From Colwellia sp. (GTDB lineage: Bacteria > Pseudomonadota > Gammaproteobacteria > Enterobacterales > Alteromonadaceae), in NCBI GenBank assembly GCA_013215295.1, contig JABSOZ010000006.1, positions 186,001 to 250,000 on the forward strand: DNA of 64,000 nt. Reading direction: 5' to 3'. Every line of letters begins with the position of its first letter. Position 1 is the first letter of the stretch. A program made the position numbers and the translations under genes. Positions 41,581 to 60,622 of this stretch are shown here, piece after piece. The notes under the pieces are model-generated. The model had not been told where the DNA came from. It saw only the letters and a program-made list of their open reading frames with translations, and did not search any database.

Positions 41581-41596
41581 AATATAATTCCTAAGC

Positions 41597-42406: not shown

Positions 42407-42407
42407 G

Positions 42408-43211: not shown

Positions 43212-43213
43212 GA

Positions 43214-45532: not shown

Positions 45533-46546
45533 CTATCGTTTAACTGAACTGTTACCAAAGTGAAGCATCGCAAACTTTTCTATGGAGTTATACATTTCAC
45601 CGGGTAAAAATTTCAACCAAGCACAAGCCAACGTCATTATTGTTCGGCCAGGTTCTTGCAAAATTATTCTATAATTACAGTATATTGCTTGATGAATAAG
45701 TTTAAAAGCAGTGAATCTATTCTCAGACTGTATAGCCCTTCTCGCTAGATACCTGAGTTGATATGCTTGTGCCAAACTGTAAAATTGCTTGAAAAACTTA
45801 GGGTTTGAATCTTTGTTTAACAAAACAGCATGCTGCCAACTCGCCAGCTGTTTTTTAATATCCGCAGACAAGCCAGAATTGTTAATACGATAGTAAGTTA
45901 ACGGTTTTTTAATTCCTGCAAACTTCCACGACGTCATTAAGGCTATTCGCGTCCATAATTCAATATCCTCAGATTGCCTTAGTGTTTCATTAAAGTACAT
46001 TTTTCTATACTTATCTCTTTTAATACCAAAGTAGCCGATTTCTGATAACAATGATCTTCTAATAACCGGCGCAGAGCCATTACCGACAGGATTACGACAA
46101 AAAATATGCTCAGTCGTGATATTATGTATTTTTGGGAATTGCCCGACACCTAAAAGTTCACCTTCTTCATTAATGAATAATGACGGGCTGTAACTAACCC
46201 CTACTTCAGGGTTTTCACTTAAATGTTTGACATGTTGGCTTAGCTTGTCTTTAGCCCAATAATCGTCGGCATCGAGTAAAGCAACATACGAACCTCGAGC
46301 AGCATCAATGCCCGTATTGCGAGCACCAGACAATCCTCTATTTTTCTGATGAACTATTCTGATACGGGGATCTGAAAATTTATTTACTTTGTTTAAAGTA
46401 TCATCAAAACAACCATCATCAACGAGGATAAGCTCGAAATCATGATAGGTTTGTTGAAGAACGCTCGTGATACTCTGTTCTATATATTTGCCAACGTTAT
46501 ACATTGGAATAATAACTGATACTACTGGAATTGGATTAATTTTCAT
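45533..46546 (-). CDS. Glycosyltransferase family 2
   Basis: A GT-A-fold transferase for polysaccharide assembly in the cytosol. Motifs are VSVIIPMYNVGKYIEQSITS, VDDGCFDDT, GARNTGI and the metal-binding ALLDADDYW. I choose the ATG at 46546 (aggacga upstream); an in-frame TTG at 46564 is not needed. It overlaps the flippase gene by 11 bp, so the two are translationally coupled. It is one of two family-2 enzymes in this locus. Confidence 0.88.
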   Translation of the reverse strand: MKINPIPVVSVIIPMYNVGKYIEQSITSVLQQTYHDFELILVDDGCFDDTLNKVNKFSDPRIRIVHQKNRGLSGARNTGIDAARGSYVALLDADDYWAKDKLSQHVKHLSENPEVGVSYSPSLFINEEGELLGVGQFPKIHNITTEHIFCRNPVGNGSAPVIRRSLLSEIGYFGIKRDKYRKMYFNETLRQSEDIELWTRIALMTSWKFAGIKKPLTYYRINNSGLSADIKKQLASWQHAVLLNKDSNPKFFKQFYSLAQAYQLRYLARRAIQSENRFTAFKLIHQAIYCNYRIILQEPGRTIMTLACAWLKFLPGEMYNSIEKFAMLHFGNSSVKR

Positions 46547-47825
46547 GTGAATTCGTCCTATCAATTAAAGTGCGTAAGTTAAAATTAGAAGGTTTAAAAA
46601 CATTGATGAGATAAAGAGGGAACAAGCAAAAGATACTGCTAATAAAAATAGCAACGGCGAATTCCATGGGTTCGTCAGGCATCAAGGTTAACAGTGTGAT
46701 TAATGAGATGACTAAACAAATTAATCGAGTAAATGTTTCGTTATGGTACTGCTGTGTTGCCCTTTGAAAACAACAAACAACATCAACAATTAAATTTGGT
46801 AATGCGACTAAACATAATATGGTGATAATAGGTACTGCAGATGACCATGTTTCATCAAACAAAATGGGGACATAAATAGGTGCAAGTAACGCCTGAATAA
46901 CGAAGAGAAAACCAATGAACAATGAAAGCATAAATATTTTTTTTTGTTGCGCTAATAATTGCCCTTTTCGATCTAATTTACACAAGTATGGATATAAAAC
47001 AGCTATATAAACTTGGCTTAAAGACTGACTTAGACCTACACCTGCATTTTTTGCAAAAGTGTAAAAACCAAAAAGCTCTGGCGTTAATAATTTACCTGCA
47101 ATAAAAGTATCAGCATTAACTCGAATACCCCGTAAAAATTCAGTATTAAAAAGCTTTCCTGATGTTTTAAGCATTTGCTTGATAATATTTTTGTCAAAAC
47201 CAATACCGTATGACTGAACAGGTGCAAATGAGAATAATAATAACCAAAATAATGAAAAGGCTATTTTACCTAATGCAACGGCAAAGATGTCAGCCCCTAA
47301 TAAAGCAGCTACCGCAATAGACACATTTTCAATAATGACACACGCACCATTTCTGATACTAAACCAACGCATTTTACCTTCGCGCTGTAATAGGAATATT
47401 TTTACGCTAACCCAAGGATAAAGAAGATAAATGATTGCCATGGTTTTTAGTAATACTGCAATATTTTCATTAGCATAGAGTGAAGATAAATAACCCGCAG
47501 AGCTCCACTGCCCTATGGCAATTGTTAGACAGATTGCCCATTGAATGAATATTCCGCTTCTTGCATAACTTTTTACTTGGTGCTGTTTACAATTTATGAT
47601 CTGACTGCCCACCCCCGCACGTAATAACAAGGAAAATAGGTCATGAAATGCCAAGGCTAACATCGCTGTACCATAAGAAATTGGAGATAACTGAGCGGCT
47701 AATACCACAATAGTGAAGATTCTAGATAGTTTGGCAATAAATTCGGCACTCATTAACCAAACAGCATTTGAAAGTAGCTCGATAACAGAATTGAATTGTG
47801 TTTTTAGATAAGATTTCAATTGCAT
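46536..47825 (-). CDS. Oligosaccharide flippase family protein (Wzx-like)
   Basis: A 429-residue integral membrane protein with 11-12 predicted helices. The N-terminal block VWLMSAEFIAKLSRIFTIVVLA and SPISYGTAMLALAFHDLF, and the GSQIINCKQ segment, are typical of Wzx/polysaccharide transporters of the MATE-like superfamily. It would flip lipid-linked repeat units to the periplasm, where the Wzy-like protein at 59324 joins them. It is the first gene of the leftward exopolysaccharide operon. An enhancer-like motif lies at about 47959-47972. Confidence 0.86.
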   Translation of the reverse strand: MQLKSYLKTQFNSVIELLSNAVWLMSAEFIAKLSRIFTIVVLAAQLSPISYGTAMLALAFHDLFSLLLRAGVGSQIINCKQHQVKSYARSGIFIQWAICLTIAIGQWSSAGYLSSLYANENIAVLLKTMAIIYLLYPWVSVKIFLLQREGKMRWFSIRNGACVIIENVSIAVAALLGADIFAVALGKIAFSLFWLLLFSFAPVQSYGIGFDKNIIKQMLKTSGKLFNTEFLRGIRVNADTFIAGKLLTPELFGFYTFAKNAGVGLSQSLSQVYIAVLYPYLCKLDRKGQLLAQQKKIFMLSLFIGFLFVIQALLAPIYVPILFDETWSSAVPIITILCLVALPNLIVDVVCCFQRATQQYHNETFTRLICLVISLITLLTLMPDEPMEFAVAIFISSIFCLFPLYLINVFKPSNFNLRTLIDRTNSHEN

Positions 47826-47871
47826 TCGAACACTCCAAAGTTGTCATTGTTAACAAGTTAACAAGTTACCT

Positions 47872-47886
47872 TCAAGTATCGTTCCA
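47872..47886 (-). promoter_or_regulatory. Weak sigma-54-like promoter for the flippase operon
   Basis: On the minus strand the sequence TGGAACGATACTTGAA matches TGGCACGRNNNTTGCW except at two positions, one of which is the C of the -12 GC. It lies about 50-60 bp upstream of the flippase start and about 80 bp from an enhancer-like motif. The GA at -12 makes this call weak. Confidence 0.3.
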
Positions 47887-47946
47887 ACATTAAATTTAGT
47901 TTAATTGATTGATTTTTTTATATTTTATATTTTTATGGAGTGTGAT

Positions 47947-47999
47947 ACATCTAATTATTTGCAGGATGAAAATAATTAGATGTACCTTTTGCAAATTAA
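47947..47999. promoter_or_regulatory. Enhancer-like motif (copy 5) within a hairpin
   Basis: TTGCAGGATGAAAA (47959-47972) differs at two positions from the TTGCAAAATGRRRA motif found before four rightward units. A second, looser TTGCAA follows at 47989-47994. The motif straddles a perfect 13-bp inverted repeat, acatctaattatt (47947-47959) and aataattagatgt (47971-47983). It lies just after the response regulator gene and about 135 bp upstream of the flippase start. The hairpin has no U-run, so it is a poor terminator. Confidence 0.5.
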
Positions 48000-48006
48000 G
48001 AAGCGT

Positions 48007-49476
48007 TTATTCTATTGGCGTAGTTTGCCATTGTTGAATTTTCCTATAGAGCGTTGACGGGCTAACATCTAACAAGCTCGCTGCTTTTACAATATTATCT
48101 TGGCACAACTCAATCGCATGCTCGATCGCATGTTTTTCGACATCTGCAAGCGTTGCTATGGAAGACATTGATGATGTAGGTGATGTGGACTCTTGAATAT
48201 TCTGAACGTGTTCAGCAGGTGAGCGCATAATAGGTTGCTGTTGAACATCTATTGTTGAATTTATTTGTTTTGCTTGCTGACCCAGTTGTTGGGAAATAAC
48301 ATTCTCTAAGATCAATGGACCTTCAGACATAATTATCGAACTATGAATAATATTTTGCAATTGTCGAACATTACCCGGCCAAGAATATGACTTAATTAAA
48401 TTTTCTGCTCCCGTTGAAAATCCAGCAAGTGATTTGTCTTCAACTTCACAATAATGGCTTAAAAAATGCTCAGCTAATTTAATAATATCATTACTGCGTT
48501 CATTTAAAGGGGGCAATGCGATGGAAATAACATTTAATCGATAATAAAGATCTTCTCGTAACTTTTTCTCTGCGATGGCAATTTGAGGCTCTCTATTCGT
48601 CGCACTAATAAAACGAATATCTACTTTTTCTTCTTTACCGCTACCCACTTTTTGAAAGCATCCGGTTTGAATAAAACGTAATAGTTTAGCTTGTAAACTA
48701 ACGTCCATTTCAGCAATTTCATCTAAAAACAGACTGCCGCCATTTGCAAGTGTCGCGGCTCCATCTCGATTAGATACGGCACCAGAGAAAGCACCTTTAA
48801 TATGACCAAAAATTTCTGATTCCATCAATTCTGAGGGTATAGCTGCACAGTTCAACGCAATAAAAGGCCCGTTTTTTCTTTTACTTAATCGATGAATCGC
48901 TTGTGCTGCGACTTCTTTACCTGAACCACTCGGCCCAGTAATAAAAACGGATGCACTACTCGGTGCACTTTGTTCAATACACGAATAAACAAACTGCATT
49001 GGAATTGAATCACCAATGAAACCTTCAAATTTAGTTTTATGGTATACCTGATATTGATCAATAGTTCTTCGCATCAATGTACGTTCAGCTAAAATATGTT
49101 GAAGCTGTAAGGCTTGCTTTAATTTTACGATGAGTTCGAAATTATCCCAAGGTTTATGAAGAAATCCCCATATATGACCTGAATTAATGGAATTAAGTAC
49201 CGTATCCATATTGTCACACCCCGTTAAAACAATACGGACAGTTTCAGGGGAGATTTGCGCAACCTGCTCGAGCAATTGGTTACCGTCCATATTGGGCATA
49301 CTGATATCAGACACGATAACATCAACATGACATCTTTTTATGATGTCGAGAGCATCTAAACCGCTAGGAGCAGTTAAAATAGTAGCATCGACTTTACTCG
49401 TAATTCGTTCAAGAGATCTCAAAATAGCAGGTTCATCATCTACAAATAAAATAATTGATTTATTCAAATTTTGCAT
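48007..49476 (-). CDS. Sigma-54-dependent response regulator (SypG/NtrC-like enhancer-binding protein)
   Basis: A 489-residue activator with three parts: a receiver (acidic Asp13/Asp14, phospho-acceptor Asp57, Lys108 in HKPW), an AAA+ domain with Walker A GPSGSGKE (181-188), GAFSGA loop (228-233) and LFLDEIAEM, and a C-terminal Fis-type helix-turn-helix (NIVKAASLLDVSPSTLYRKIQQW). The sigma-54-contacting loop has Ser in place of Thr (GAFTGA), a mild change. It is divergent from the H-NOX unit and flanked by exopolysaccharide genes. Four rightward units have sigma-54-type promoters with a shared upstream motif, so this is the likely activator. Confidence 0.9.
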   Translation of the reverse strand: MQNLNKSIILFVDDEPAILRSLERITSKVDATILTAPSGLDALDIIKRCHVDVIVSDISMPNMDGNQLLEQVAQISPETVRIVLTGCDNMDTVLNSINSGHIWGFLHKPWDNFELIVKLKQALQLQHILAERTLMRRTIDQYQVYHKTKFEGFIGDSIPMQFVYSCIEQSAPSSASVFITGPSGSGKEVAAQAIHRLSKRKNGPFIALNCAAIPSELMESEIFGHIKGAFSGAVSNRDGAATLANGGSLFLDEIAEMDVSLQAKLLRFIQTGCFQKVGSGKEEKVDIRFISATNREPQIAIAEKKLREDLYYRLNVISIALPPLNERSNDIIKLAEHFLSHYCEVEDKSLAGFSTGAENLIKSYSWPGNVRQLQNIIHSSIIMSEGPLILENVISQQLGQQAKQINSTIDVQQQPIMRSPAEHVQNIQESTSPTSSMSSIATLADVEKHAIEHAIELCQDNIVKAASLLDVSPSTLYRKIQQWQTTPIE

Positions 49477-49783
49477 GTTTATCCTTAACAGTCACCTGTA
49501 TTAATACAGTGAATCCCCAAAAAAAAACTTTACAGAGTCTTCTTTATTGGTGATTTTTAATATGCCTATATATAAAACTTAATGTATCGTCTAAACAATT
49601 ACAAATGTAGTTCAGTAAATTTGTCACCTAAAATACAATAAGATCAATGATTTTTGTATAAATAACAGTTATAACTATCATTAGTCTTTGTGTATAACAC
49701 AGATGAACATAACAAATAATAAATATAAATGCCGATACTATTGAACAACTAATTAATTTAAATAGCATAATTCATAAGGAACA
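49477..49783. other. Divergent region between the sigma-54 regulator and the H-NOX unit
   Basis: This 307-bp gap must carry promoters for both directions. It contains one clear palindrome near the regulator's start and a ribosome site aagga at 49776-49780 before the rightward genes. I found no GG-N10-GC promoter for either gene. Confidence 0.5.
49496..49509. promoter_or_regulatory. 14-bp palindrome upstream of the sigma-54 regulator gene
   Basis: ctgtattaatacag is a perfect palindrome 20 bp before the regulator's start codon, likely within its leader or promoter. A site for an autoregulator or another repressor is plausible. Confidence 0.45.
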
Positions 49784-51064
49784 ATGATGTCAGAGAGTAG
49801 CACTAATGAATCTTTATACTCAGACATGACAGTATTATGCGTTGACGATGAAAGAATTATTTTACGGACTTTGCAAAGATTATTTCACCGTAAGCCGTAT
49901 AATTTAATCATCACCAGCAGTGCACAAGACGCGTTAGAAATCATAGAAAAAAAACCTATTGATGTCATTGTTTCAGACATGAGAATGCCTGAAATGGATG
50001 GTACAACTCTTTTAGAGAAAGTCGCTACATCACACCCTGAAACCTACCGCATTGTTTTGAGTGGCTACGCTGACTTTGAAACAACGGTGGCAGCGATAAA
50101 TTTAGGAAAAATTAATCGCTTTATAAATAAACCCTGGAATAATAAAGACCTAATTCATGCCGTTGAAGAGGGTTTAGAGAGAATAAGATTAAAAAAAGAA
50201 AACCATAATTTAAAAATTAATATTCAATATAAAAATAAATTATTAAATAATATAAATCATGATTTAGAAGATAAAATCAATTTGCGCACCAAGCAGATTA
50301 AGGTTTCATTATTAAAAAATGAACAAAATAATAAAGCCTGCGAAAAAATGTTGTTTAACTTTATTGCCATAAACCCATATCTGAGCGGTAGTTTTGCTAA
50401 ACAAGTAGGACAATTGGCAGGACAATTAGGAAATCAACTTAATCTAGAAAAAGAAGCAATCCGTGATATACGTTTATCGGGATTTCTCAATGAAATAGGG
50501 ATGTTAGGTTTTGATCCAACACTATGTAAAATGCCTTATAACTCACTCAATTTCGAACAAAAAAAACAATTCTTGGCACAAGGAAGTATTGCGCAACAAA
50601 TACTTTCTCCCGCTCAGCGTTTAAATAACGTAAAAGCAATATTAACTCACCAATATTCACCGCTTGAACGCATTGCCGAAAAAGCAAATGATGAAATATT
50701 ATTAGCGTGTGAAATAATAATTATCGCAAGAGATTATTGGCGATATTCTTATGGAAAAATTGATGTGAATACCATGGACCAAAAGCAAATATTTCTAGAA
50801 TTAAATAAATCAAGGGGTATAAAGTATGCAGAAAATATTCTTGATATCTTAATTGCTAATCCTGAGTTGATTAATGAAAACATTACAGAAAAAGGTTTAA
50901 GTACTCTGCAACTTCTGCCGGGAATGATATTAAAAAACAGTTTATTTTCCACTTCACATTTACTCATCTTAGCTGAAGATCATGAGTTTACTGAACACTC
51001 AATTGAGAAACTTATTGAATACGAATCGAATCAAAAACATCAGTTTGTTATTGTTATTGAATAA
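49784..51064 (+). CDS. Response regulator with degenerate HD-GYP domain (HnoD-like)
   Basis: A 426-residue protein. Residues 15-140 are a complete receiver (Asp21/Asp22, phospho-acceptor Asp65, RFINKPW), a coiled-coil linker follows (about 140-190), and the rest has the helical pattern of an HD-GYP domain. The catalytic HD is replaced (LSGFLNEIGMLGF where LLHDIGKIG is usual) and no GYP motif follows HQYSPLERI, so it should not hydrolyse c-di-GMP. In Shewanella an HD-GYP protein of this kind, HnoD, tunes the H-NOX network by binding. Gene order with H-NOX and kinase supports that role. Confidence 0.82.
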   Translation: MMSESSTNESLYSDMTVLCVDDERIILRTLQRLFHRKPYNLIITSSAQDALEIIEKKPIDVIVSDMRMPEMDGTTLLEKVATSHPETYRIVLSGYADFETTVAAINLGKINRFINKPWNNKDLIHAVEEGLERIRLKKENHNLKINIQYKNKLLNNINHDLEDKINLRTKQIKVSLLKNEQNNKACEKMLFNFIAINPYLSGSFAKQVGQLAGQLGNQLNLEKEAIRDIRLSGFLNEIGMLGFDPTLCKMPYNSLNFEQKKQFLAQGSIAQQILSPAQRLNNVKAILTHQYSPLERIAEKANDEILLACEIIIIARDYWRYSYGKIDVNTMDQKQIFLELNKSRGIKYAENILDILIANPELINENITEKGLSTLQLLPGMILKNSLFSTSHLLILAEDHEFTEHSIEKLIEYESNQKHQFVIVIE

Positions 51065-51091
51065 TTATCCTCATCATTTAAGGTATTTAAT

Positions 51092-51637
51092 ATGCAAGGT
51101 TCAATATTTACCTCTTTTTCAGATATGATTATTGAAAAAATGGGCATGTCTGTTTGGAATGAATTATTAGAAAAAGTTAATCCCAGCTCAGAGGGAATTT
51201 ATACCAATGGCATGCAATATGACGACTCTGAAATATTGGCCTATCTTTCTGAATTATCAACTATGACTCAAGTTGAGGTGCCAACATTAATAAGAAACTT
51301 TGGAGAATATTTGTTTATTCATTTATTGAATAGTAGTCCGGCCAAAATTTTAAATATAGATAATTTAAAAGACTTTCTGACTTGTATTGATGGTGTTATA
51401 CATAATGAGATAAAACGCGTTTATCCTGATGCTTATCTGCCCTCGTTTAAATATGAAGAAACTCCTGAAGGCGACTTAATTATGTTCTATAAATCAAAAC
51501 GTAAATTATGCCACCTTTGTGAGGGGTTAATTGCAGGAGCAGCTATTCATTTTGAACAATCAATATCAATTGGACATCCTGAGTGTATGCATAATGGCGC
51601 AGACAAGTGTAAATTAGTAATATCTTTCAAGGAATAA
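51092..51637 (+). CDS. hnoX: H-NOX heme nitric-oxide sensor
   Basis: A 181-residue heme protein. The axial ligand His104 (VIHNEIKRVYPDAYLPSF) and the heme-propionate motif Tyr133-x-Ser135-x-Arg137 (YKSKR) are present. Four Cys at 140, 143, 165 and 173 match the zinc-site pattern known from Shewanella/Vibrio H-NOX proteins, implying an added redox-sensing function. Stand-alone H-NOX proteins bind NO and inhibit a partner kinase; the kinase gene follows after one base. Context links NO to exopolysaccharide control. Confidence 0.93.
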   Translation: MQGSIFTSFSDMIIEKMGMSVWNELLEKVNPSSEGIYTNGMQYDDSEILAYLSELSTMTQVEVPTLIRNFGEYLFIHLLNSSPAKILNIDNLKDFLTCIDGVIHNEIKRVYPDAYLPSFKYEETPEGDLIMFYKSKRKLCHLCEGLIAGAAIHFEQSISIGHPECMHNGADKCKLVISFKE

Positions 51638-51638
51638 C

Positions 51639-52580
51639 ATGAGTGAACTAAACGTTTATAAAACAGCTTATGATCGAGAGAAGAAGGCACGCTTGTTAGC
51701 TGAAAAATTGCTAGAAGATAAAACACGAGAATTATATGATAATGTTTTAGATCTTCAGGGCGCGGTTTTAGAATTAAAAATGACGCAAGATCAACTTATC
51801 CACTCTGAAAAAATGGCATCACTGGGTCAACTAATGGCTGGGATCACGCATGAAATTAATAATCCTATCGCTTATTCGTACAGTAATCTCTTTTGCTTAT
51901 CTGAGAATATCAAGGAAATTTTTAAACTCGACAAAATTATACAAGCATATGCCCCAGATAAAGAAAGTGCTAAAAGTGTGATAGAACAGTACCAATCTTT
52001 GCGTAAAAACATTGATGCAGACTATTTAATATCAGATACACCTTCCTTACTCGTTGATACTATTGATGGTATAGAACGAGTAAAAAACATCATCGATAAT
52101 TTGAAGAAAATCTCCTATAAGGGTGAAGGTTCACTTGCTGCTTGCAGTATAAATGACTGTATAAATGACTGTATAAAATTGGCATCTAATGAACTTAAAT
52201 ACAAAATAGATATTAAGCTAGATTTGTCAGAATGCGATGACATTCTTGGGCAACCATATGATTTAAACCAAGTATTTATAAATTTATTTATGAACGCCTC
52301 ACATGCTTGTGGCAGTGATGGCTTATTAACAATTCAAACGATACAAGTAAAAGACAATGTTATTGTATATGTTCAAGATAATGGCAAAGGTATTAGCGAC
52401 GAAAATATTTCAAAAGTATTTGATCCTTTCTATACGACCAAAGCTATTGGTGAAGGTACGGGCTTAGGTTTACCTATTTCGCATGGAATTATTGAAAAAC
52501 ATAATGGTAAAATCGAAGTTTCCAGTATCGTTGATGTTGGAACATGTTTTAAAATCACCCTGCCTTTAGCAAACGTTTAA
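51639..52580 (+). CDS. Soluble sensor histidine kinase (H-NOX partner)
   Basis: A 313-residue kinase without membrane spans. An N-terminal coiled coil (residues 8-58) leads into the dimerisation/phosphotransfer helix with His71 (GITHEINNPIAYSYSN) and a HATPase domain (N-box VFINLFMNASHACG, G1 VQDNGKGISDENI, G2 GEGTGLGLPISHGI). It has no sensor or receiver domain of its own, so the H-NOX protein encoded directly upstream should be its sensor. Phosphate could pass to the HnoD-like receiver and to the sigma-54 regulator next door, the latter being inference. Confidence 0.9.
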   Translation: MSELNVYKTAYDREKKARLLAEKLLEDKTRELYDNVLDLQGAVLELKMTQDQLIHSEKMASLGQLMAGITHEINNPIAYSYSNLFCLSENIKEIFKLDKIIQAYAPDKESAKSVIEQYQSLRKNIDADYLISDTPSLLVDTIDGIERVKNIIDNLKKISYKGEGSLAACSINDCINDCIKLASNELKYKIDIKLDLSECDDILGQPYDLNQVFINLFMNASHACGSDGLLTIQTIQVKDNVIVYVQDNGKGISDENISKVFDPFYTTKAIGEGTGLGLPISHGIIEKHNGKIEVSSIVDVGTCFKITLPLANV

Positions 52581-52593
52581 CTCATTCAACAAT

Positions 52594-52622
52594 AAATCAC
52601 TTAAGCCGATATTAAGTGATTT
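52594..52622 (+). terminator. Terminator of the H-NOX operon
   Basis: aaatcacttaa (52594-52604) and ttaagtgattt (52612-52622) form a perfect 11-bp stem with a 7-base loop, followed by T-rich sequence. It isolates the H-NOX unit from the glycosyltransferase unit to its right. The rest of the gap to 53005 holds the enhancer-like and promoter elements listed next. Confidence 0.8.
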
Positions 52623-52796
52623 ATTACTGTTTTATCTCTTTGTAGTCTTATCCAACATTATGCTAACAATCTCACTTTCATCGAAAATATTGTTTTCTAG
52701 CTGGTTGTATTAGGGTCTAAAAATAATTTAGTTACACCCTTTAGTGTTTCTCAGCTGCTATTAATTTTTACACTTCACACACTATCTATATTTAAA

Positions 52797-52814
52797 ATTC
52801 GCAATATGAGAGCT
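52797..52814. promoter_or_regulatory. Enhancer-like motif, copy 4
   Basis: ATTCGCAATATGAGAGCT is a degenerate copy of the TTGCAAAATGRRRA motif. Read on the other strand it is CTCTCATATTGCGA, one mismatch from the SypG-type pattern TTCTCANNNTGCDW. It is about 95 bp upstream of the sigma-54-like promoter at 52898. Confidence 0.45.
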
Positions 52815-52897
52815 AATTATACAAAATCTAAGGATAACCTATAGACACTTTTGTTTTAACGTCCATATAGCTCTTTGATAGCACCATTGGTTAATAA

Positions 52898-52913
52898 TGG
52901 AGTGGTTTTTGCT
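52898..52913 (+). promoter_or_regulatory. Sigma-54-type promoter before the glycosyltransferase gene at 53005
   Basis: TGGAGTGGTTTTTGCT has GG at 52899-52900, ten bases, then GC at 52911-52912, with TTGCT matching the -12 consensus. Transcription would start near 52924. Confidence 0.55.
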
Positions 52914-53004
52914 TGTTGTTTAACTGACTAAGTTTTTGTTTACACTTTTAACAGTAGATAAAAGCAAAAACATGATTAACTTGTTAACAATAAAGGTGGC
53001 GTTT

Positions 53005-53736
53005 ATGACGAGTAAAACATTAGTACTGAGTATTGCCTTAAATGGTTATCAATGGATGTATAAAAAAGAGCTTAGTACTCACAAAAAATATGCTCAAAAG
53101 CAAGGTTATAGTCACCAAGCTGTAACTCGCCCTTATGTTTCAGCTTTAGGTGTAGAGTGTTGTTGGCTTAAATTAACCTTAATGCGAACGGCCTTATTAT
53201 CTGGCTATGACACGGTTTTATTTTTGGATGCTGATACCGTTGTTAATGCAAGTTGCCCTGCTCTATCATCTGTATTAGAAAATGAAAAGCATATCTATAT
53301 GGCAAAAGGATATTCTAAGCGATTTAATTCAGGAGTACTTATTGCGCAGAATAATGAACTCACGACTTCTTGGATAAGTCGTGTCATTGATTCCCGATTT
53401 AACACAGTACAAAAAGAAAATGATGTTGGTTGGGGGGAAAATGGTCATGTTATCGAATTAAGTAAAGACGTCAACTTTATAAAAGAACTTGATCAGAAAT
53501 GGAATAATACTTTCGATCACCATTTAGATGACTACATTCGACATAGCAACTGTGGCCCTATGCGAACTGGCTTCCTTCATAACATTTTTCATAAAATCGT
53601 GTTTTGTTTCTCTGCCAGAATATTAGCCTTCGTGAATCGAAATAAGTTAGTTTCTGATCGGAAATATTGTCAAGATATACTATCTCGTGAGACAAATATA
53701 ATTTTGTCTTTATATCCAAAACTTACCCGTAAATAG
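53005..53736 (+). CDS. Putative glycosyltransferase (nucleotide-diphospho-sugar transferase fold)
   Basis: I place the start at 53005 (MTSKTLVLSIALNGYQWMYK; aaggtgg upstream); the open frame begins 69 bp earlier. The 243-residue protein has a GT-A-like layout with the DxD motif in VLFLDADTVV, then FNSGVLIAQN and WGENGHVIEL, as in galactosyltransferase-type or GT8-like enzymes. The tail near 195-225 is hydrophobic and may touch the membrane. It is a one-gene unit with its own sigma-54-type promoter in the exopolysaccharide locus. Confidence 0.75.
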   Translation: MTSKTLVLSIALNGYQWMYKKELSTHKKYAQKQGYSHQAVTRPYVSALGVECCWLKLTLMRTALLSGYDTVLFLDADTVVNASCPALSSVLENEKHIYMAKGYSKRFNSGVLIAQNNELTTSWISRVIDSRFNTVQKENDVGWGENGHVIELSKDVNFIKELDQKWNNTFDHHLDDYIRHSNCGPMRTGFLHNIFHKIVFCFSARILAFVNRNKLVSDRKYCQDILSRETNIILSLYPKLTRK

Positions 53737-53748
53737 AACATCAAAATT

Positions 53749-53783
53749 CATTGCAAAATGAAAATATTTTTTATTTTGCAATG
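53749..53783. promoter_or_regulatory. Enhancer-like motif, copy 1, in an inverted repeat
   Basis: TTGCAAAATGAAAA (53751-53764) is the left part of a 16-bp inverted repeat (53749-53764 with 53768-53783, one G-U pair). It lies 13 bp after the preceding stop codon and about 115 bp before the sigma-54-type promoter at 53871. It could act as a terminator as well, but no U-run follows. Confidence 0.65.
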
Positions 53784-53870
53784 TAAACCTCTTTAACCTG
53801 AACATCAAGAACAAACAAAAGTACGAACAAATCCCTTTATTAACAATCATATAAAATAAAAAAGACAGAT

Positions 53871-53886
53871 TGGCACATCTTAAGCA
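53871..53886 (+). promoter_or_regulatory. Sigma-54-type promoter of the WecG/sugar transferase unit
   Basis: TGGCACATCTTAAGCA has GG at 53872-53873 and GC at 53884-53885 with the required ten-base gap; TGGCAC is the full -24 consensus. The start of transcription would be near 53897, 28 bp before the ATG at 53925. Confidence 0.75.
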
Positions 53887-53924
53887 GCGTACAGGTTAAC
53901 TCACCGCAATTTAGGTTAACTGAA

Positions 53925-55220
53925 ATGATGAAAACTAAACTTTCACTTCAATCAATGACCCAAACATTCAAGCATTACGATTCTCTTGAACAAGAATACA
54001 GCGGCACTTTTATTGACCGGCCTTTAGCACTTTTACTTATATTGATATTGCTGCCTTGTTTCCTTTTAAACGTATTACTGGCATTAATCACTAAAAACAC
54101 CGTGTTTACGGTGCAACATAAAACGGATGCTTTAAGCAGAAAAGTGATGGTACGTAACTTCAGTTGCGGGATTTGGGTGAAGACAGCGGTTTTAATTGAT
54201 ATTTACTCAGGAAAAATTTCATTTTGTGGTGTCCCATTAACTCACAGGCTTACACCAGATGTTCAGTTCTGTGTAATGAACCAGATAAAATGTAAAGCCG
54301 GCATTTTTAGTTTGTATGACTTACACCTTAAAACAGGATTAACGGTGATGACTAAAGAGCAGTTACTTGAACAGCAACTTAATGGCAACGTAATTGACTA
54401 TTTAGCTCTAGTGATTAAAAGTTTTATGTCTGTAGCTCTTTATGGCCGAGCAGTAATGAAATTAAAACAAGCTAAATACTTATCTCTCTTTGGTTTGAAT
54501 GTTAAAAACAGTTCAATGAAAGAAGCTGTCGACTGGATAACGCAGCGCCCAACAAAACATAACGACACTCAAATAAGCTTTTTCATTAACGTAAATTCAA
54601 TTAATTTGTCAATTAGTGAACCTAAATTCTTTAACCAACTATCAAAAGCAAATGCTTTATTTGCAGACGGTTCGGGCATGAGGTTAGCGGCAAAAAAAGC
54701 AGGATTTATGCTTAAGGGTAATAATAATGGTACGGACCTATTACCCCACCTTTGTAAAAGCTGCGTTAAAAGTAAACAATCTTTATATTTTTTCGGGGCT
54801 AAGCCCGGTATCGCAGAAAAAGCAGCAAATACACTACGTGCTCAATATTCTGGGCTTAACATCGCTGGAACAGAGCATGGCTTTAACAAAAATAAGACCT
54901 CAGAACAAATTGTTCAAGCAATCAATAACAGTGGTTGCGACGTTTTATTAGTGGCTATGGGCTCGCCTGCTCAAGAAAAATGGTTACTCGAACATAAAGA
55001 AAAATTGCATTGTCATACCGCATTAGCCGTAGGTGGGCTATTTGATTTTTATTCTGGCAACATTTCGCGCGCTCCTATGTGGTTAAGAGAAATAGGTATG
55101 GAATGGGTTTGGCGATTAATACAAGAACCGCGTAATAAATTCAATCGTTATGTAATTGGTAATCCGCTTTTTTTATATAGAACTTTCTTTCTTGGTTTAG
55201 TAAATACTGGAGAAAAATAA
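53925..55220 (+). CDS. WecG/TagA/CpsF glycosyltransferase with degenerate sugar-transferase-like N-terminus
   Basis: A 431-residue fusion. Residues about 185-425 are a complete WecG/TagA domain (FINVNSINLS, LFADGSGMRLAAK, YFFGAKPGIAEKAA, DVLLVAMGSPAQEKWL, GGLFDFYSGNISRAPMWLR), which adds a sugar to a lipid-linked intermediate. Residues 25-110 resemble a shortened polyprenyl-phosphate sugar transferase: DRPLALLLILILLPCFLLNV as the membrane helix and IDIYSGKISFCGVPLTH where NVLKGDMSLVGPRP is usual. The catalytic residues are gone. Its stop overlaps the start of a real sugar transferase (TAATG). Confidence 0.88.
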   Translation: MMKTKLSLQSMTQTFKHYDSLEQEYSGTFIDRPLALLLILILLPCFLLNVLLALITKNTVFTVQHKTDALSRKVMVRNFSCGIWVKTAVLIDIYSGKISFCGVPLTHRLTPDVQFCVMNQIKCKAGIFSLYDLHLKTGLTVMTKEQLLEQQLNGNVIDYLALVIKSFMSVALYGRAVMKLKQAKYLSLFGLNVKNSSMKEAVDWITQRPTKHNDTQISFFINVNSINLSISEPKFFNQLSKANALFADGSGMRLAAKKAGFMLKGNNNGTDLLPHLCKSCVKSKQSLYFFGAKPGIAEKAANTLRAQYSGLNIAGTEHGFNKNKTSEQIVQAINNSGCDVLLVAMGSPAQEKWLLEHKEKLHCHTALAVGGLFDFYSGNISRAPMWLREIGMEWVWRLIQEPRNKFNRYVIGNPLFLYRTFFLGLVNTGEK

Positions 55221-55900
55221 TGACTATTCAAATCATACAAAATGTTAAAAATAGCACTTTATTTAGCCGAACTCATAAAGCTACTGTTAAAAATTATAAA
55301 CATAAAGGTATACCGGTAATGTTACAACAAACAGTCGCGCTAATGACCCTGATACTAATTAGTCCTTTATTTTTATTAGTCCTGTGTTTGATTAAAATAG
55401 AAAGCTCTGGCAGTGCTTTATTCTCTCAAACACGGGTGGGTGAAAATGGTCGACATTTTAAAATGTACAAGTTTCGCTCTATGTATGTAAAGTCAGACCT
55501 AAAATACAAAGAACCAGACCCTTCACAGAGTTCTCGTGAAGGTGTTTGTAAAAAGTATATTAACGATCCAAGAATTACTAAATTTGGTCAATTTATTAGA
55601 AAATACTCAATAGATGAGATCCCACAATTATTTAATATTGTTAGAGGTGATATGTGTTTAGTTGGACCTAGACCCGCTTTATCTATTGAAACTTATGAAT
55701 ATGATCGATTCATTCAACCACGATTATTTACCAAGCCGGGTTTAACGGGTTTATGGCAAATTTCTGGACGAGCTGACACGAATTTTGAACAACAGTTACG
55801 ACTAGATAAAACCTACATTAAACAACAAAGCTTTTTTATGGATTGCAAAATAATAGCGCTCACCATTCCTGCCGTATTAACGGCAAAAGGTGCTTATTAG
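55220..55900 (+). CDS. Polyprenyl-phosphate sugar-1-phosphate transferase (exopolysaccharide priming enzyme)
   Basis: A 226-residue bacterial sugar transferase of the short (WbaP C-terminal/PglC-like) type. One hydrophobic segment lies at about 36-58, then GRHFKMYKFRSMYVKSD, KYSIDEIPQLFNIVRGDMCL, VGPRPAL and PGLTGLWQISGRADTNFEQQ. It starts repeat-unit synthesis by placing sugar-1-phosphate on undecaprenyl phosphate. It is translationally coupled to the WecG-type gene, whose N-terminus looks like a decayed copy of the same fold. Confidence 0.92.
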   Translation: MTIQIIQNVKNSTLFSRTHKATVKNYKHKGIPVMLQQTVALMTLILISPLFLLVLCLIKIESSGSALFSQTRVGENGRHFKMYKFRSMYVKSDLKYKEPDPSQSSREGVCKKYINDPRITKFGQFIRKYSIDEIPQLFNIVRGDMCLVGPRPALSIETYEYDRFIQPRLFTKPGLTGLWQISGRADTNFEQQLRLDKTYIKQQSFFMDCKIIALTIPAVLTAKGAY

Positions 55901-55952
55901 TAATAACGTCTACAATGCTAGTGCTCATTAAAGATTAAGAATAAGGGGGCAG

Positions 55953-55992
55953 GTAAAAGTGAGTTGATTACACATGATCAATTCACTTTTAC
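55953..55992 (+). terminator. Long hairpin after the sugar transferase gene
   Basis: gtaaaagtgagttgat (55953-55968) and atcaattcacttttac (55977-55992) form a 16-bp stem with one G-U pair and an 8-base loop. It has no U-run; it may still end or protect the WecG/sugar transferase transcript. Confidence 0.55.
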
Positions 55993-56036
55993 ATTCATTA
56001 TCAGTACATTTTGATGGAATTCATTGCTATTTCTCC

Positions 56037-56066
56037 GTTTGCAAAATGGGGATCACCCATTGCAAA
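56037..56066. promoter_or_regulatory. Enhancer-like motif, copy 2, in an inverted repeat
   Basis: TTGCAAAATGGGGA (56039-56052) with cccattgcaaa (56056-56066) as an imperfect inverted partner. It is about 100 bp upstream of the sigma-54-type promoter at 56146. The remaining sequence between 55901 and 56203 shows no gene. Confidence 0.6.
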
Positions 56067-56145
56067 TAGCAAAAAAACGCATCATATTGAAAAACAAAAA
56101 CAACAAAGTCCATTAAATACAACAACTAATCTAAATTCTTCCAAT

Positions 56146-56161
56146 TGGTACGTTAAGTGCA
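56146..56161 (+). promoter_or_regulatory. Sigma-54-type promoter of the Wza/Wzz unit
   Basis: TGGTACGTTAAGTGCA has GG at 56147-56148 and GC at 56159-56160 with a ten-base gap; TGGTACG differs from the -24 consensus by one base. Transcription would start near 56172, about 30 bp before the ATG at 56203. Confidence 0.7.
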
Positions 56162-56202
56162 ACTGTTGTTTGTAACTCGTTAAAGTCATTGTGGAGAATT
56201 AC

Positions 56203-57474
56203 ATGAAGTGTCATAAAAATTATAAAATGATCCCAATGTTTGTTGCGTTACTTGGCACTCTGTTTTCACAGGGTTGTGCTCATCACTCTTCAGAGAATAT
56301 TGATAAATCTTCCTTAAGGTTTTATGGAACACCCGCTAATAATGGTGATGATTTTATGCACGAGCAAGCGCCTAATACATTCTTTTCTGATGGCTTAAAT
56401 TGCAGCAAATTTCAAAGTATGGGTGCAGCATTAAATTATAGAACTGACAAACCATTAAATTTAAATGCAAACAACATGAAAGCTTCAGCAGAGAATGATC
56501 CTATTTTGGCTCAAGGACTGTTATTAAGTCCCGGTGACTTAGTAGAAGTAATCATTGAAGATGGTGAAGGCTTTAATGGCCGCTATATTGTTGACAACGC
56601 GGGTTATGTAAAACTCCCCATCATTGGTGGAATAGAAGCAGGTGGAGCAACAACGGCTAAATTAGAAACTAAAATTGAATTAGCCCTTGTTAAAGCCGAA
56701 ATTTTTCAACCTTCCAACTCCAGTGTAACGATTCACGTATTGAATTGGTCGCCCATTGAAGTGTCTGTTGCCGGTGCCGTATTTCAACCTGGTACTGTAT
56801 TCATTAATAAAAAACCGGCCGGGATCCAAAATTCGGAACATTTGAATGCTTTTGGTGATTATTCAACAACTCGATTATTATCTGAAGCCATCAGAGCGGC
56901 ATCGGGCATTAGACCTGATGCAAAATTAGACCAAATAATTTTATTACGTAAAGGCTGGCAAGTACAGATAGACATGACAGGCATGTTATCTGGAAATTTA
57001 GTCACCGATTACCCACTTGTTGCAGGCGACCGTGTAATAGTTCCAAGTACCGGTTGCTTTCAAGAGCACTTAGTAAGACCTAGTTTGATTACACCTAAAG
57101 GTTTTCGTGTATTTATGTCAAATTTGATAGATTCAGCAGGCGATAATTCTAGCGCTGCCGTTGGACGGTTTTCTACCAACTTACCCTACGGAACACGTTT
57201 ACTTCAAGCGGCAGTATCAGCAAATTGTGTCGGCGGTAAAGACTGGACAAATGCACCAAGACGCGTTGTGCTTGCCAGTAGAAATCCGATTACTGGTGAC
57301 ACACAAGTTATTGAACGTTCTGTTGAAGAGCTGATGACTATGCCCAATAAAGGAAATATTAACCCCTATTTGATGCCTAATGATGCTATTGCATGTTACG
57401 ACTCAGATATTACTAACTATCGTGATATTGCAAAAACAATTGCTGACCTTATTATTCCATTTAAATTGTTATAG
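56203..57474 (+). CDS. Polysaccharide export outer-membrane lipoprotein (Wza-like)
   Basis: I use the ATG at 56203 (GGAG at 56193); an upstream GTG falls within the ribosome site. The 423-residue product has a lipoprotein signal ending FSQGC (Cys25). A poly_export domain begins LLSPGDLVEVIIEDGEGFNGRY, and SLBB-like repeats follow (VSVAGAVFQPGTVFI; LVAGDRVIVPSTGCF). It forms the outer-membrane pore for the polymer. The Wzz-like gene follows 7 bp later. Confidence 0.9.
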   Translation: MKCHKNYKMIPMFVALLGTLFSQGCAHHSSENIDKSSLRFYGTPANNGDDFMHEQAPNTFFSDGLNCSKFQSMGAALNYRTDKPLNLNANNMKASAENDPILAQGLLLSPGDLVEVIIEDGEGFNGRYIVDNAGYVKLPIIGGIEAGGATTAKLETKIELALVKAEIFQPSNSSVTIHVLNWSPIEVSVAGAVFQPGTVFINKKPAGIQNSEHLNAFGDYSTTRLLSEAIRAASGIRPDAKLDQIILLRKGWQVQIDMTGMLSGNLVTDYPLVAGDRVIVPSTGCFQEHLVRPSLITPKGFRVFMSNLIDSAGDNSSAAVGRFSTNLPYGTRLLQAAVSANCVGGKDWTNAPRRVVLASRNPITGDTQVIERSVEELMTMPNKGNINPYLMPNDAIACYDSDITNYRDIAKTIADLIIPFKLL

Positions 57475-57481
57475 GTGATTT

Positions 57482-58873
57482 ATGAAATACCCTATTGTAA
57501 CGTTATCGAAATATGGTCTATTTAGAGCAAAAATATACGCTGTTTTAAAGCGCCCATATTTGGTTGTCGCCTTAGCTTCTTATTTAATTGTTGCCTTGCT
57601 AATCATAATCTACCTAAACAAGGCTCCTTCCTTTACCAGTGACATGGAAATGGTATTACCCGGAACAGGTACTAGTAACAGTGTGTCATTGGATAATGTC
57701 GGACAAATAGTTTCACAAACGAGCGCGCCTTTTTCTGCGGGTGGCTTTAACCCTCGGGTTAATTATAAAGAAATGTTATCTAGTCGTAGTGTAAGATCTC
57801 GGGCTGCAAAAAAACTGCAGCTTTCACTTGAGGAATTGGGTAAACCTAGAATTAAACTCACAGAGCAGACTTCAATTATCTCCTTATCTATGAATGCTAA
57901 TAATCAAGGCGTAGCTCAAGCAAAGACTTTGGCCTTATATGAAGCCCTACAGGATGAACTGAGCAATCTAAGAGCTGACGAAGTGTTACGCCGTGACAAA
58001 AGCATTAACCACGTACTTGATCAATATCGAGTAAGAATGAACATAACACGAAATGCCATTGTTGACTTTCAGCAGCGCTCTATTGTCGTTTCAACTGAAC
58101 AAATGGATCAATTGGTGAGAACGCTTTCTGGGGTAAAAGAAAAACAACTTTATGTAAATGCTGAAGCTAAACAATTACAAGAATATATTTATCAGTTGAG
58201 TGAAGAACTAGGTGTTTCTCCTAAACTAGCAGGTCAAGCTTTTACGCTTCAATCAGATGTTGAATTTAGAGCGTATATCACTGAGTTAAAGGAAAGTATT
58301 ACCCAACTCACTGAATACAGTTCTCGTTGGGGTGTTAACCACCCAAAAGTTAAAGCCCAACAAAAAAGATTAAACTTTACGCGTATTGCAATTAACGAGA
58401 GAAGCAGGGAAATGTATGGGGTAAACTCAAGTGAAATATTCAATTCATTGAACTTGGATTTGAATCCGAAACGTTCTGAATTATTCGCTGACTTAATTGA
58501 CGCTTATGCAAAACAAAAAGGTCAAGATTCAATGTACCGTGAGCTAGGACGTTCAATTGAACATTTGAGCGACCAATTGAAAATTTACTCACGAGAAATA
58601 GTTGAGTTAGAACGTCTACAAAGAGAATTTAACATGGCTGAGGCTATTTTTATCTCGGCAGCAGCAAGACTTGAAGCAAGTAAAGCAGATATTTTCGCCT
58701 CTTATCCGGTATTACAAATGTTAACAACACCGTCGTATCCAACGAAACAAACTAGTCCTAAAAAGGTCATTGCCTTTATTGGAGCAATAGCCGGCTTTAT
58801 ATTGATCACAATTGGCTTAATCATTTTATCGCAGCGTAATAAGTTAATCCGTGTTTTATTAAAGAAAAGCTAG
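57482..58873 (+). CDS. Chain-length/co-polymerase protein (Wzz/GumC type, no kinase domain)
   Basis: A 463-residue inner-membrane protein with transmembrane helices near residues 28-47 and 428-450, and a long periplasmic coiled coil between them. A GNVR-like segment (LERLQREFNMAEAIFISAAAR) and the PSYPTKQTSPKK proline-rich stretch before the second helix are typical. It has no cytosolic tyrosine-kinase domain, and no separate kinase gene is near. It sets polymer length and connects to the Wza pore. Confidence 0.87.
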   Translation: MKYPIVTLSKYGLFRAKIYAVLKRPYLVVALASYLIVALLIIIYLNKAPSFTSDMEMVLPGTGTSNSVSLDNVGQIVSQTSAPFSAGGFNPRVNYKEMLSSRSVRSRAAKKLQLSLEELGKPRIKLTEQTSIISLSMNANNQGVAQAKTLALYEALQDELSNLRADEVLRRDKSINHVLDQYRVRMNITRNAIVDFQQRSIVVSTEQMDQLVRTLSGVKEKQLYVNAEAKQLQEYIYQLSEELGVSPKLAGQAFTLQSDVEFRAYITELKESITQLTEYSSRWGVNHPKVKAQQKRLNFTRIAINERSREMYGVNSSEIFNSLNLDLNPKRSELFADLIDAYAKQKGQDSMYRELGRSIEHLSDQLKIYSREIVELERLQREFNMAEAIFISAAARLEASKADIFASYPVLQMLTTPSYPTKQTSPKKVIAFIGAIAGFILITIGLIILSQRNKLIRVLLKKS

Positions 58874-59114
58874 TTTACTTGCTTAGATGTTATAGATAAA
58901 TATTGATCAATCCGCGATGCTTATATTAACCGTTGGCTTTATGTTGGCGTATTAAGTTTCAAGTTGTGAGATTAAGAAACTTTAATAATGAAGTTAATAC
59001 TTAATGCTGAATTTTTACGATTCATTATTATCCCGCTTATTTTAATCATTTATGTTGTAATCTGCTTTTTATTAGATTTATTTTTAAAAATTGTAAAAAG
59101 CTTTAAAAATTATT

Positions 59115-59154
59115 GAATTGCAAAATGAGAATCCAATTTGCTACTTTGCAATTC
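59115..59154. promoter_or_regulatory. Enhancer-like motif, copy 3, in an inverted repeat
   Basis: TTGCAAAATGAGAA (59118-59131) reads TTCTCATTTTGCAA on the other strand, a full match to the SypG enhancer pattern TTCTCANNNTGCDW as I recall it. gaattgcaaa (59115-59124) pairs with tttgcaattc (59145-59154). It is about 110 bp upstream of the promoter at 59236. Confidence 0.7.
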
Positions 59155-59235
59155 ATGCAATCCCCCTCCCTTCAAATAAAAACGCACACGCAATTAATTC
59201 ATTTATTATCAATCAATTAGGGTAAATTCAATTAT

Positions 59236-59251
59236 TGGCACAATTTAAGCT
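59236..59251 (+). promoter_or_regulatory. Sigma-54-type promoter of the Wzy unit
   Basis: TGGCACAATTTAAGCT has GG at 59237-59238 and GC at 59249-59250 with a ten-base gap, and a full TGGCAC. It is closely similar to the promoter at 53871. Transcription would start near 59262. Confidence 0.75.
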
Positions 59252-59323: not shown

Positions 59324-60622
59324 GTGATTTATTCATATTTGGATTATTTAATTATGCATTCAACACACCCAGTTCGGAATTATACAGAAGAAAAATTGGT
59401 CTGGTTCGGCTTAACGTTAACCTACCCTTTATTTTTTTTGGGTGGTTTATATATCATGGGTTCGTTAATAGGTTGGATGATTTTCTTCGTTGTTATATTA
59501 CGTTGGTATGTGAACGGAAAAGACAAAAATTCAGTCATCCCTGTAATAGTATGGTTATGGATAATTGGCGGTTTGTTCATGTTATTAGCTTTACTGATTG
59601 CCCATTCGAATTGGGATTTAGGTTTGGCAAAAACGATTAAGTCTTCTATTGGCTGGGCAAAAGGTTGGGCGTTAATGCCGTTATTTTTATTTATTGGTGC
59701 ATTTGTCGATATTAAACCGCAATTAATCGTTAGAGCCGTAAGTATTGTTTCATTCCACACGTTAATTTTTGCCGTTGTGAGTATTGTTCTTTATCTGGGA
59801 GGTATACCCGGCGATTTATTTATTTCACCTCTACAAGTCATCGGTGGACCGGGTGAAAGTTTCTTTACCGTCAGTTTATATGGCTTAAATCCTGAAACAG
59901 GTGCAGGTCGGTGGAGATTCTTTACTCCTTGGGCACCAGCCGCTGGATTTATGGCCTGCATATTTCTAATTTTTACGAGTCAAGATAAAAATGTTTTTTG
60001 GAGAAATACTGGGGTGTTAGGGAGCTTTTTCATGTGTTTACTGTCTCAGTCAAGAGTGGGCTGGGCTATATATATCGCTTTAATGCCGCTATGTTTTTTA
60101 AGTCAATATTTTCAGAATCCCATTTGGTTAATCTTCTTTGGCGTAGCAATTTCTGCAATATTACTTCTCGGTGAACCTGTATTTCATTCGCTCAACAACA
60201 GTTACGAAGATATAAAGGCATCAAGACCTGATTCAACACGAGTACGCAATACTTTAGAAGTTTTGGCTCTGCAACGCTGGGAAACAGAAGCACCTATTTG
60301 GGGGCACGGCATAGTAGAGAAAGGCCCGAAAGTAGTAGAAGGTATGCCCATAGGCTCTCACCACAGTTGGTACGGATTATTATTTGTAAAAGGTATTGTA
60401 GGACTTTTAGCCCTAGCCATACCGCTAACCTTTACTTGTCTTTACCTATTTTTGAATTGCCTAAAAAGCCAAATTTGTTTTACCGCAGCATTAATGGCAA
60501 TTGTTATTATCTGTTACTCATTTTTTGAAAATCTAGAGATTTTAAGCTTTATTTATTGGCCAGCACTTTTATGGATAGGCATTGCCCTTAACCCACTAAA
60601 ATCAGGAGAAATATATGTTTAA
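59324..60622 (+). CDS. O-antigen ligase/polymerase family protein (Wzy-like)
   Basis: A 432-residue membrane protein with about ten helices. The Wzy_C-type periplasmic loop is recognisable: SRPDSTRVRNTLEVLALQRW-like sequence, IWGHGIVEKG and GSHHSWYGLLFVKGIVGLLA. It should polymerise lipid-linked repeats. The GTG at 59324 gives this length; an ATG at 59354 (MHSTHPVRNY) is an equally possible start. It is the first gene of a three-gene overlapping unit with a pyruvyltransferase and a glycosyltransferase. Confidence 0.85.
   Translation: MIYSYLDYLIMHSTHPVRNYTEEKLVWFGLTLTYPLFFLGGLYIMGSLIGWMIFFVVILRWYVNGKDKNSVIPVIVWLWIIGGLFMLLALLIAHSNWDLGLAKTIKSSIGWAKGWALMPLFLFIGAFVDIKPQLIVRAVSIVSFHTLIFAVVSIVLYLGGIPGDLFISPLQVIGGPGESFFTVSLYGLNPETGAGRWRFFTPWAPAAGFMACIFLIFTSQDKNVFWRNTGVLGSFFMCLLSQSRVGWAIYIALMPLCFLSQYFQNPIWLIFFGVAISAILLLGEPVFHSLNNSYEDIKASRPDSTRVRNTLEVLALQRWETEAPIWGHGIVEKGPKVVEGMPIGSHHSWYGLLFVKGIVGLLALAIPLTFTCLYLFLNCLKSQICFTAALMAIVIICYSFFENLEILSFIYWPALLWIGIALNPLKSGEIYV

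Follow-up and report, generated by a model that had tools for sequence, protein, structure and literature searches.

The exopolysaccharide (EPS) locus in the 64,000-nucleotide stretch of Colwellia sp. DNA analyzed here (the window) appears to be governed by a single on-switch, in which five operons for one secreted polysaccharide share activator sites and a sigma-54 promoter, often with a putative DNA-bending site in between. The window sits in a 5.77-Mb genome that its nearest named relatives place in the Colwellia group. From sequence comparison, we consider it very probable that the five Wzx/Wzy-type operons are co-activated at paired sites by the locus's own regulator, a bacterial enhancer-binding protein (bEBP) of the LuxO/SypG family, and at the computational level this central claim has good support. 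A first-pass annotation had proposed a sigma-54 regulon with a repeated enhancer motif; that proposal gains support from the conservation of the elements, their specificity at the genome scale, an IHF-like element, and a recognition helix that fits the motif.

We infer binding, IHF action, activation, and an input from nitric oxide (NO) as follows. Dimers of the regulator would bind two neighboring dyad sites (approximately TTTGCANNNTGCAAA, often with one weak half) centered 79 to 114 bp upstream of a −24/−12 promoter, IHF would probably bend the intervening DNA at some promoters, and the AAA+ ring of the regulator would open the sigma-54 polymerase, switching on together the five operons of one Wzx/Wzy-type polysaccharide pathway. 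Such an arrangement would give the polysaccharide regulon found in many marine bacteria a cis-code that can be read, made up of paired activator sites, an IHF-like site, and a sigma-54 promoter.

Sigma-54 promoters and paired activator sites

The four GG-N10-GC promoters annotated at first pass, ahead of the GT8, WecG, Wza, and Wzy genes, are present in the sequence (Table 1), and a fifth that had been overlooked lies ahead of the flippase operon (47886, minus strand). All five are −24/−12 promoters and are conserved in relatives. Across 43 loci, 107 of 144 upstream regions held a sigma-54 match of at least 7 bits, a permissive limit (L086 was left out as a duplicate of G005). Sequences similar to the flippase promoter occur at about the same position in most relatives, and 7 flippase upstream regions had no 7-bit match. 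Among rows of at least 7 bits, window included, 30 of 32 flippase promoters lacked the C of a GC at −12, whereas 74 of 75 promoters of the other four operons had GC there. rpoN was found in the genome.

As annotated earlier, TTGCAAAATGRRRA occurs exactly at 53751, 56039, and 59118, and TTGCAGGATGAAAA occurs at 47959. Spacing to the promoters had been put at 95 to 115 bp; the four promoters are preceded by motif copies that start 99, 120, 107, and 118 bp upstream, slightly farther than claimed. A weak copy reported near 52797 is poorly supported, since nothing there exceeded 9 bits in the scan with the relatives' matrix and cross-validation gave 9.8 bits. Each strong enhancer consists of two sites 18 to 30 bp apart, a pairing that had escaped the first reading.

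Expectation-maximization on 96 nonredundant upstream regions of relatives (window excluded; rows >85% identical removed) yielded the de novo motif tTTGCAAAaTgnAAA. With this relatives-only matrix, the window's six best sites fell at four of the five promoters, and seven of its eight sites above 12 bits lay upstream of the five promoters (0.03 expected). In cross-validation, a matrix from non-Colwellia loci found 42 of 45 Colwellia promoters, compared to 1 of 75 control upstream regions (window, 4 of 5). The fuller dyad TTTGCANNNTGCAAA was seen in several relatives.

Genome-wide, the exact motif TTGCAAAATGRRRA occurs three times, always in the window, and a strict composite pattern (motif, 88 to 112 bp, sigma-54 promoter) matched three times, always in the locus, versus 0 matches for the reversed control. 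Exact motif and strict composite pattern were found at the locus only; these elements, their conservation, their spacing, and this restriction can be read from the DNA directly. Allowing up to two mismatches, the motif was not enriched genome-wide (314 forward and 285 reverse matches versus 368 and 376 in the control). An earlier composite search used a gap of 60 to 90 bp, too short for the window's own promoters, and its 11 matches versus 14 in the control were noise. Perfect TTYGCANNNTGCRAA dyads occur at four places in the genome (control, 1), none at the five promoters, and none is claimed as a regulon member: at three of them, no sigma-54 match within 175 bp scores above 9.0 bits, and the fourth (L164) has a 13.1-bit match just 20 bp away.

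An IHF-like element, likewise overlooked at first pass, lies 29 to 32 bp upstream of the promoter in relatives. The sequence that we take to be the IHF consensus was matched exactly in 22 of 107 upstream regions (1.8 expected), and an independent de novo motif (approximately CAAnnnnTTA) was located at −29 to −32 in 62 of the 83 regions scoring >6 bits (93 examined). In the window, the GT8 promoter carries the consensus with one mismatch, in addition to the two sites in Table 1.

A possible nitric oxide input

The bEBP gene (minus strand) and a module of three genes encoding an HD-domain response regulator, the heme NO sensor H-NOX, and a histidine kinase (49784-52580) are placed between the leftward flippase operon and the rightward operons. 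The proximal histidine of H-NOX and its YxSxR motif, which we take to be the heme motif, aligned with the solved protein 2kii. H-NOX was present in 39 of 44 genomes with the regulator versus 96 of 251 without it, and in 22 of the 44 it lay no more than 30 kb from the regulator (the linkage probability calculated for this ignores phylogeny). In Vibrio fischeri, HnoX diminishes HahK, which acts via SypF and LuxU on SYP-dependent biofilm (excerpts of PMC12369376). By analogy, NO would lower activation of the polysaccharide operons, and the adjacent kinase, restrained by NO-bound H-NOX, would probably set regulator phosphorylation. We regard this step, from H-NOX and kinase onto the regulator, as evenly poised between holding and failing.

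Plausible, although short of probable, is that H-NOX and the kinase serve only the neighboring HD-domain response regulator, in cyclic di-GMP (c-di-GMP) control, and not the bEBP. All three share an apparent operon, the HD regulator comes near the NCBIfam model "response regulator c-di-GMP phosphodiesterase, NosR family" (364.6 versus a cutoff of 400), and H-NOX kinases of Shewanella and Vibrio cholerae act on c-di-GMP enzymes, according to portions of PMC8738867. However, H-NOX is linked to the bEBP in the 22 genomes above, and in V. fischeri the HnoX/HahK signal reaches SypG-dependent biofilm (PMC12369376, in excerpt).

Several observations weigh against an NO-responsive regulon of five operons. 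The sigma-54 matrix was built from assumed frequencies, and 37 of the 144 upstream regions (43 loci), 20 of them Wzy, had no 7-bit match. In the window, the GT8 enhancer is weak, and the match to the IHF consensus is poor at the WecG and Wza promoters. Reverse cross-validation was weaker (46 of 62 versus 15 of 133), and the relatives are not independent samples, their loci having been picked by presence of the regulator. H-NOX lies elsewhere in 17 of the 44 regulator genomes and is absent in 5; in one relative (G003), the HD regulator and kinase remain but the genome gave no H-NOX match, and therefore the NO input is not obligatory.

The probable activator, its sites, and its family

The regulator has intact bEBP features (GSLFLDE Walker B, GAFSGA loop, REDLYYR R-finger, and HTH_8) and a LuxO/SypG-like recognition helix, SPSTLYRKIQQWQ, also found in LuxO- and SypG-like proteins. 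Alanine scanning of LuxO identified eleven critical residues, including Ser423, Ile425, Tyr426, Arg427, Lys428, and Leu429 in helix 3 (PMC11407668, in part); at the presumed equivalents, the regulator has S, L, Y, R, K, and I. The genome holds 20 bEBP matches at E values of 1e-60 or better, regulator included, and the SPSTxYRK helix was found in 0 of the other 19 loci. Because these 19 bEBPs are without a LuxO-type recognition helix, the locus's own response regulator is most likely the activator of the five promoters. That the promoters and enhancers are real but answer to another bEBP, with the local regulator acting elsewhere, seems improbable to us. The 20 matches, a count made only at that threshold, leave room for it, and the relatives were picked by the regulator; therefore, the company that regulator and enhancer keep is partly selection. 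Against it stand the missing helix and the higher frequency of composite matches where the regulator is present (13 of 44 genomes versus 18 of 251 without it; Fisher P = 9e-5).

The inverted repeats noted at three motif copies were confirmed against 60 single-base shuffles each, scoring 13 at WecG (shuffle maximum, 10), 11 at Wzy (7), and 9 at Wza (8). A perfect 14-bp inverted repeat at 47947-47983, enclosing one activator site, is located ∼24 bp past the regulator's stop codon. Repeat arms (53749-53783, 59114-59155, and in relatives) co-vary outside the TTGCAA core: the 32 WecG and Wzy rows, which reduce to 13 distinct arm pairs, gave a mean of 3.0 contiguous pairs versus 1.57 permuted (P = 0.0002; phylogeny not controlled), a pattern that could reflect a hairpin, a cruciform, or quasi-palindrome mutation. 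We find it very unlikely that the repeats are mainly hairpins, acting as 3′-end stabilizers or attenuators of the upstream gene with the motif just their stem. The repeats do come after upstream stop codons, and the co-variation of the outer arms fits a stem; yet the motif core is conserved and not co-varying, the sites hold their distance to the sigma-54 promoters and occur also without long repeats, Rfam gave no match in positions 38000-64000 of the window, and quasi-palindrome mutation could yield the same pattern.

As to the activator's family, a tree built from 43 proteins, rooted at the midpoint and with its long paralog branches flagged, placed 16 EPS regulators in one group (support, 99/99), adjoining a group (97/99) with LuxO-like, SypG-like, and five other proteins. 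The nine SypG-like proteins were assigned by gene neighborhood, and V. fischeri SypG lies outside the tree's sample. By the tests made, the regulator is neither SypG nor LuxO but a member of a neighboring clade. Its best NCBIfam model is the LuxO equivalog (470.3 bits, below the 800 cutoff); LuxO-like proteins of Aeromonas, Grimontia, Enterovibrio, Psychromonas, and Aliagarivorans scored 633 to 677, likewise under 800.

The regulator also carries Ser for Thr in the GAFTGA loop. Among the 76 frames in 80 loci with a G[AST]F.G[AS] loop, to which the count was confined, all 38 with an SPSTLYRK[IMV]Q helix had Ser (37 GAFSGA and 1 GSFSGA), and the remaining 38 all had Thr; in 12 of the genome's 19 other bEBP loci (L167-L185), the expression used matched no GAFTGA-type motif. 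GAFSGA is a tolerated variant (passages of PMC4641369 and PMC6615313), and the loop Thr helps to sense DNA conformation downstream of −12 (a passage of PMC7057263). The EPS regulators would form a natural clade in which Thr-to-Ser is fixed in the loop sensing DNA near −12. We considered whether GAFSGA has co-adapted with the GA at −12 of the flippase promoter; this idea is weakened, because GA at −12 also occurs at two Vibrio syp-type promoters whose regulators have GAFTGA. More speculatively, and with more doubt than confidence, the EPS regulators may constitute an undescribed third lineage within the LuxO/SypG family, one in which this change is fixed and a tie to an NO sensor is frequent; polysaccharide control via paired TTGCA enhancers may be the older job, the source of LuxO quorum sensing and SypG symbiosis.

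As a positive control, we applied the same matrices to nine Vibrio-type loci that encode both a SypG-like protein and a SypA-like STAS protein, recording the best site per promoter only. Promoter-site pairs (19) were found in eight of the nine (V388, none). Ten of the 19 sites were the exact dyad TTCTCANNNTGAGAA, centered 56 to 79 bp upstream, in seven of the nine loci; V337 had a near copy. The motif had earlier been likened to the SypG enhancer. Copy 3 does fit the published motif for SypG that PMC10162802 quotes (seen in excerpt), but SypG-type half-sites do not occupy both sides of the dyad: only one half is similar, the sites are mostly LuxO-like, and the regulator falls outside the SypG clade. 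Because Vibrio syp-type loci carry the TTCTCANNNTGAGAA dyad, copy 3 reads as a hybrid, one half LuxO-like and the other SypG-like. Both the LuxO-type half-site (TTGCA/TGCAA) and the LuxO-type recognition helix are found at the locus, and the LuxO enhancer form TTGCAWWWTGCAA (same excerpt) is contained in the relatives' dyad TTTGCANNNTGCAAA.

Like V. fischeri syp, which the nine Vibrio-type loci represented in this analysis, the locus combines a response-regulator bEBP within a polysaccharide locus, several sigma-54 promoters, and repeated upstream sites, and it holds an H-NOX and kinase, with HnoX/HahK input reported for V. fischeri. Unlike syp, its regulator has GAFSGA (GAFTGA in syp-type regulators) and belongs to another clade, its sites are LuxO-like and lie 79 to 114 bp upstream (56 to 79 bp for the syp-type dyads), and few genes match (bEBP, STAS, PGT, an ABC ATPase, and further single matches). 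Its H-NOX is inside the locus and its kinase is without the receiver domain that V. fischeri HahK has (PMC12369376, in part). With LuxO/qrr, it shares the half-site, two sites ∼100 bp upstream of a sigma-54 promoter, and a near-identical recognition helix; in contrast, its targets would be polysaccharide operons instead of small RNAs, and its regulator misses the LuxO model cutoff and forms a separate clade. We very much doubt that this is a syp locus whose regulator is a genuine ortholog of SypG or LuxO, since the similar architecture, the LuxO best model, and the fit of copy 3 (PMC10162802, as excerpted) are set against a LuxO score of 470 versus 800, separate groups in the tree (99/99 and 97/99), few window proteins matching syp-type stretches, and a different dyad. 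By the tests made, the locus would work like syp but in a separate lineage, a syp-like system outside Vibrio with a built-in NO sensor.

The H-NOX networks of Shewanella and Vibrio, whose members we take to be named HahK, HnoB, HnoC, and HnoD, resemble the locus in that H-NOX adjoins a kinase and response regulators and has a role in biofilm. They differ in that neither the three-gene module nor the bEBP gene of the locus encodes an EAL-type enzyme, and in that the locus holds a sigma-54 activator; HnoC, by contrast, is a repressor according to sections of PMC8738867.

Reach of the proposed regulon and organization of the locus

Family-wide, a looser composite pattern matched 41 times in 31 of 295 genomes (3 control matches). 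In seven genomes (G000, G002, G003, G206, G258, G270, and G108), a match lay on the regulator's contig and near the regulator; of the other regulator genomes with a match, G079 had two on another contig and five had matches elsewhere. G221, without the regulator, had two. Matches in regulator-less genomes exceed the reversed control, and therefore the composite pattern is not clean family-wide. G002 has a full element ∼280 kb from its locus (L201:4861-6493), complete with both arms and TGGCACACATTTAGCT; an acyltransferase gene (Acyl_transf_3, PF01757) follows ∼400 bp downstream, with a 54-codon frame in between. This unlinked acyltransferase is a predicted extra regulon target in that one relative. 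A second out-of-locus match, in G258 (L202), is not claimed; its second arm is absent, and only a 61-codon frame lies downstream.

Gene order and content are mostly retained in several Colwellia loci, and rearranged versions occur in Pseudoalteromonas, Alteromonas, Glaciecola, and one Oceanospirillaceae genome. The module between regulator and GT8 is absent in L072-L074 and L110. In G003 (L068:579-3027), a gap of ∼235 bp is found at the place of the window's H-NOX, between HD regulator and kinase.

Table 1. Regulatory elements and genes of the EPS locus (window positions)
Feature	Coordinates	Strand	Remarks
Sigma-54 promoter, flippase	47871..47886	-	TGGAACGATACTTGAA; 61 bp before flippase start; -12 is GA, not GC
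IHF-like site, flippase promoter	47902..47914	-	AATCAATCAATTA; exact to WATCARNNNNTTR
Activator site 2, flippase promoter	47958..47972	+	16.3 bits; center -79; inside 14-bp inverted repeat 47947-47983
Activator site 1, flippase promoter	47988..48002	+	19.7 bits; center -109
Weak activator site before GT8	52799..52812	+	TCGCAATATGAGAG; better copies in relatives G002, G003, L110
Sigma-54 promoter, GT8	52898..52913	+	11.4 bits
Activator site 1, WecG promoter	53750..53764	+	20.6 bits; center -114
Activator site 2, WecG promoter	53768..53782	-	19.5 bits; center -96
Sigma-54 promoter, WecG-PGT	53871..53886	+	TGGCACATCTTAAGCA; 13.7 bits
Activator site 1, Wza promoter	56038..56052	+	13.2 bits; center -101
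Activator site 2, Wza promoter	56059..56073	+	15.3 bits; center -80
Sigma-54 promoter, Wza-PCP	56146..56161	+	TGGTACGTTAAGTGCA; 14.9 bits, highest score in 64 kb
Activator site 1, Wzy promoter	59117..59131	+	20.3 bits; center -112
Activator site 2, Wzy promoter	59138..59152	-	11.0 bits; center -91
IHF-like site, Wzy promoter	59207..59219	+	TATCAATCAATTA; exact to consensus
Sigma-54 promoter, Wzy-pyruvyltransferase-GT2	59236..59251	+	TGGCACAATTTAAGCT; 12.5 bits
Family-2 glycosyltransferase (GT2)	45533-46564	-	Same leftward operon as flippase
Flippase	46536-47825	-	Leftward operon downstream of 47886 promoter (45533..47825)
Sigma-54 response regulator (bEBP)	48007..49476	-	REC + AAA+ + Fis-type HTH; GAFSGA loop; recognition helix SPSTLYRKIQQWQ
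Response regulator with HD_5 domain	49784..51064	+	Apparently degenerate HD-GYP, judged by eye
H-NOX (HNOB) heme NO sensor	51092..51637	+	Aligned to solved protein 2kii
Short histidine kinase	51639..52580	+	After H-NOX; no receiver domain found
Glycosyltransferase family 8 (GT8)	52936..53736	+	
WecG/TagA/CpsF glycosyltransferase	53925..55220	+	
Initiating sugar-phosphate transferase (Bac_transf, PGT)	55220..55900	+	
Wza-type export protein	56191..57474	+	
Probable chain-length determinant (PCP)	57482..58873	+	Weak NCBIfam matches only
Wzy/O-antigen-ligase-type polymerase	59324..60622	+	
Pyruvyltransferase	60615-61757	+	Within 60615..62661
Family-2 glycosyltransferase after pyruvyltransferase	61717-62661	+	Within 60615..62661

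Titles and abstract openings retrieved for Colwellia RpoN exopolysaccharide, Pseudoalteromonas sigma54 exopolysaccharide, and Alteromonas H-NOX exopolysaccharide did not describe the locus, which does not prove its absence from the literature. Farther left in the window (38645-43961), STAS, HATPase, and SpoIIE-phosphatase genes surround an Mla-type lipid-transport operon; these leftward genes had no matches in the relatives' stretches compared for gene content, and they form a possible partner-switching module.

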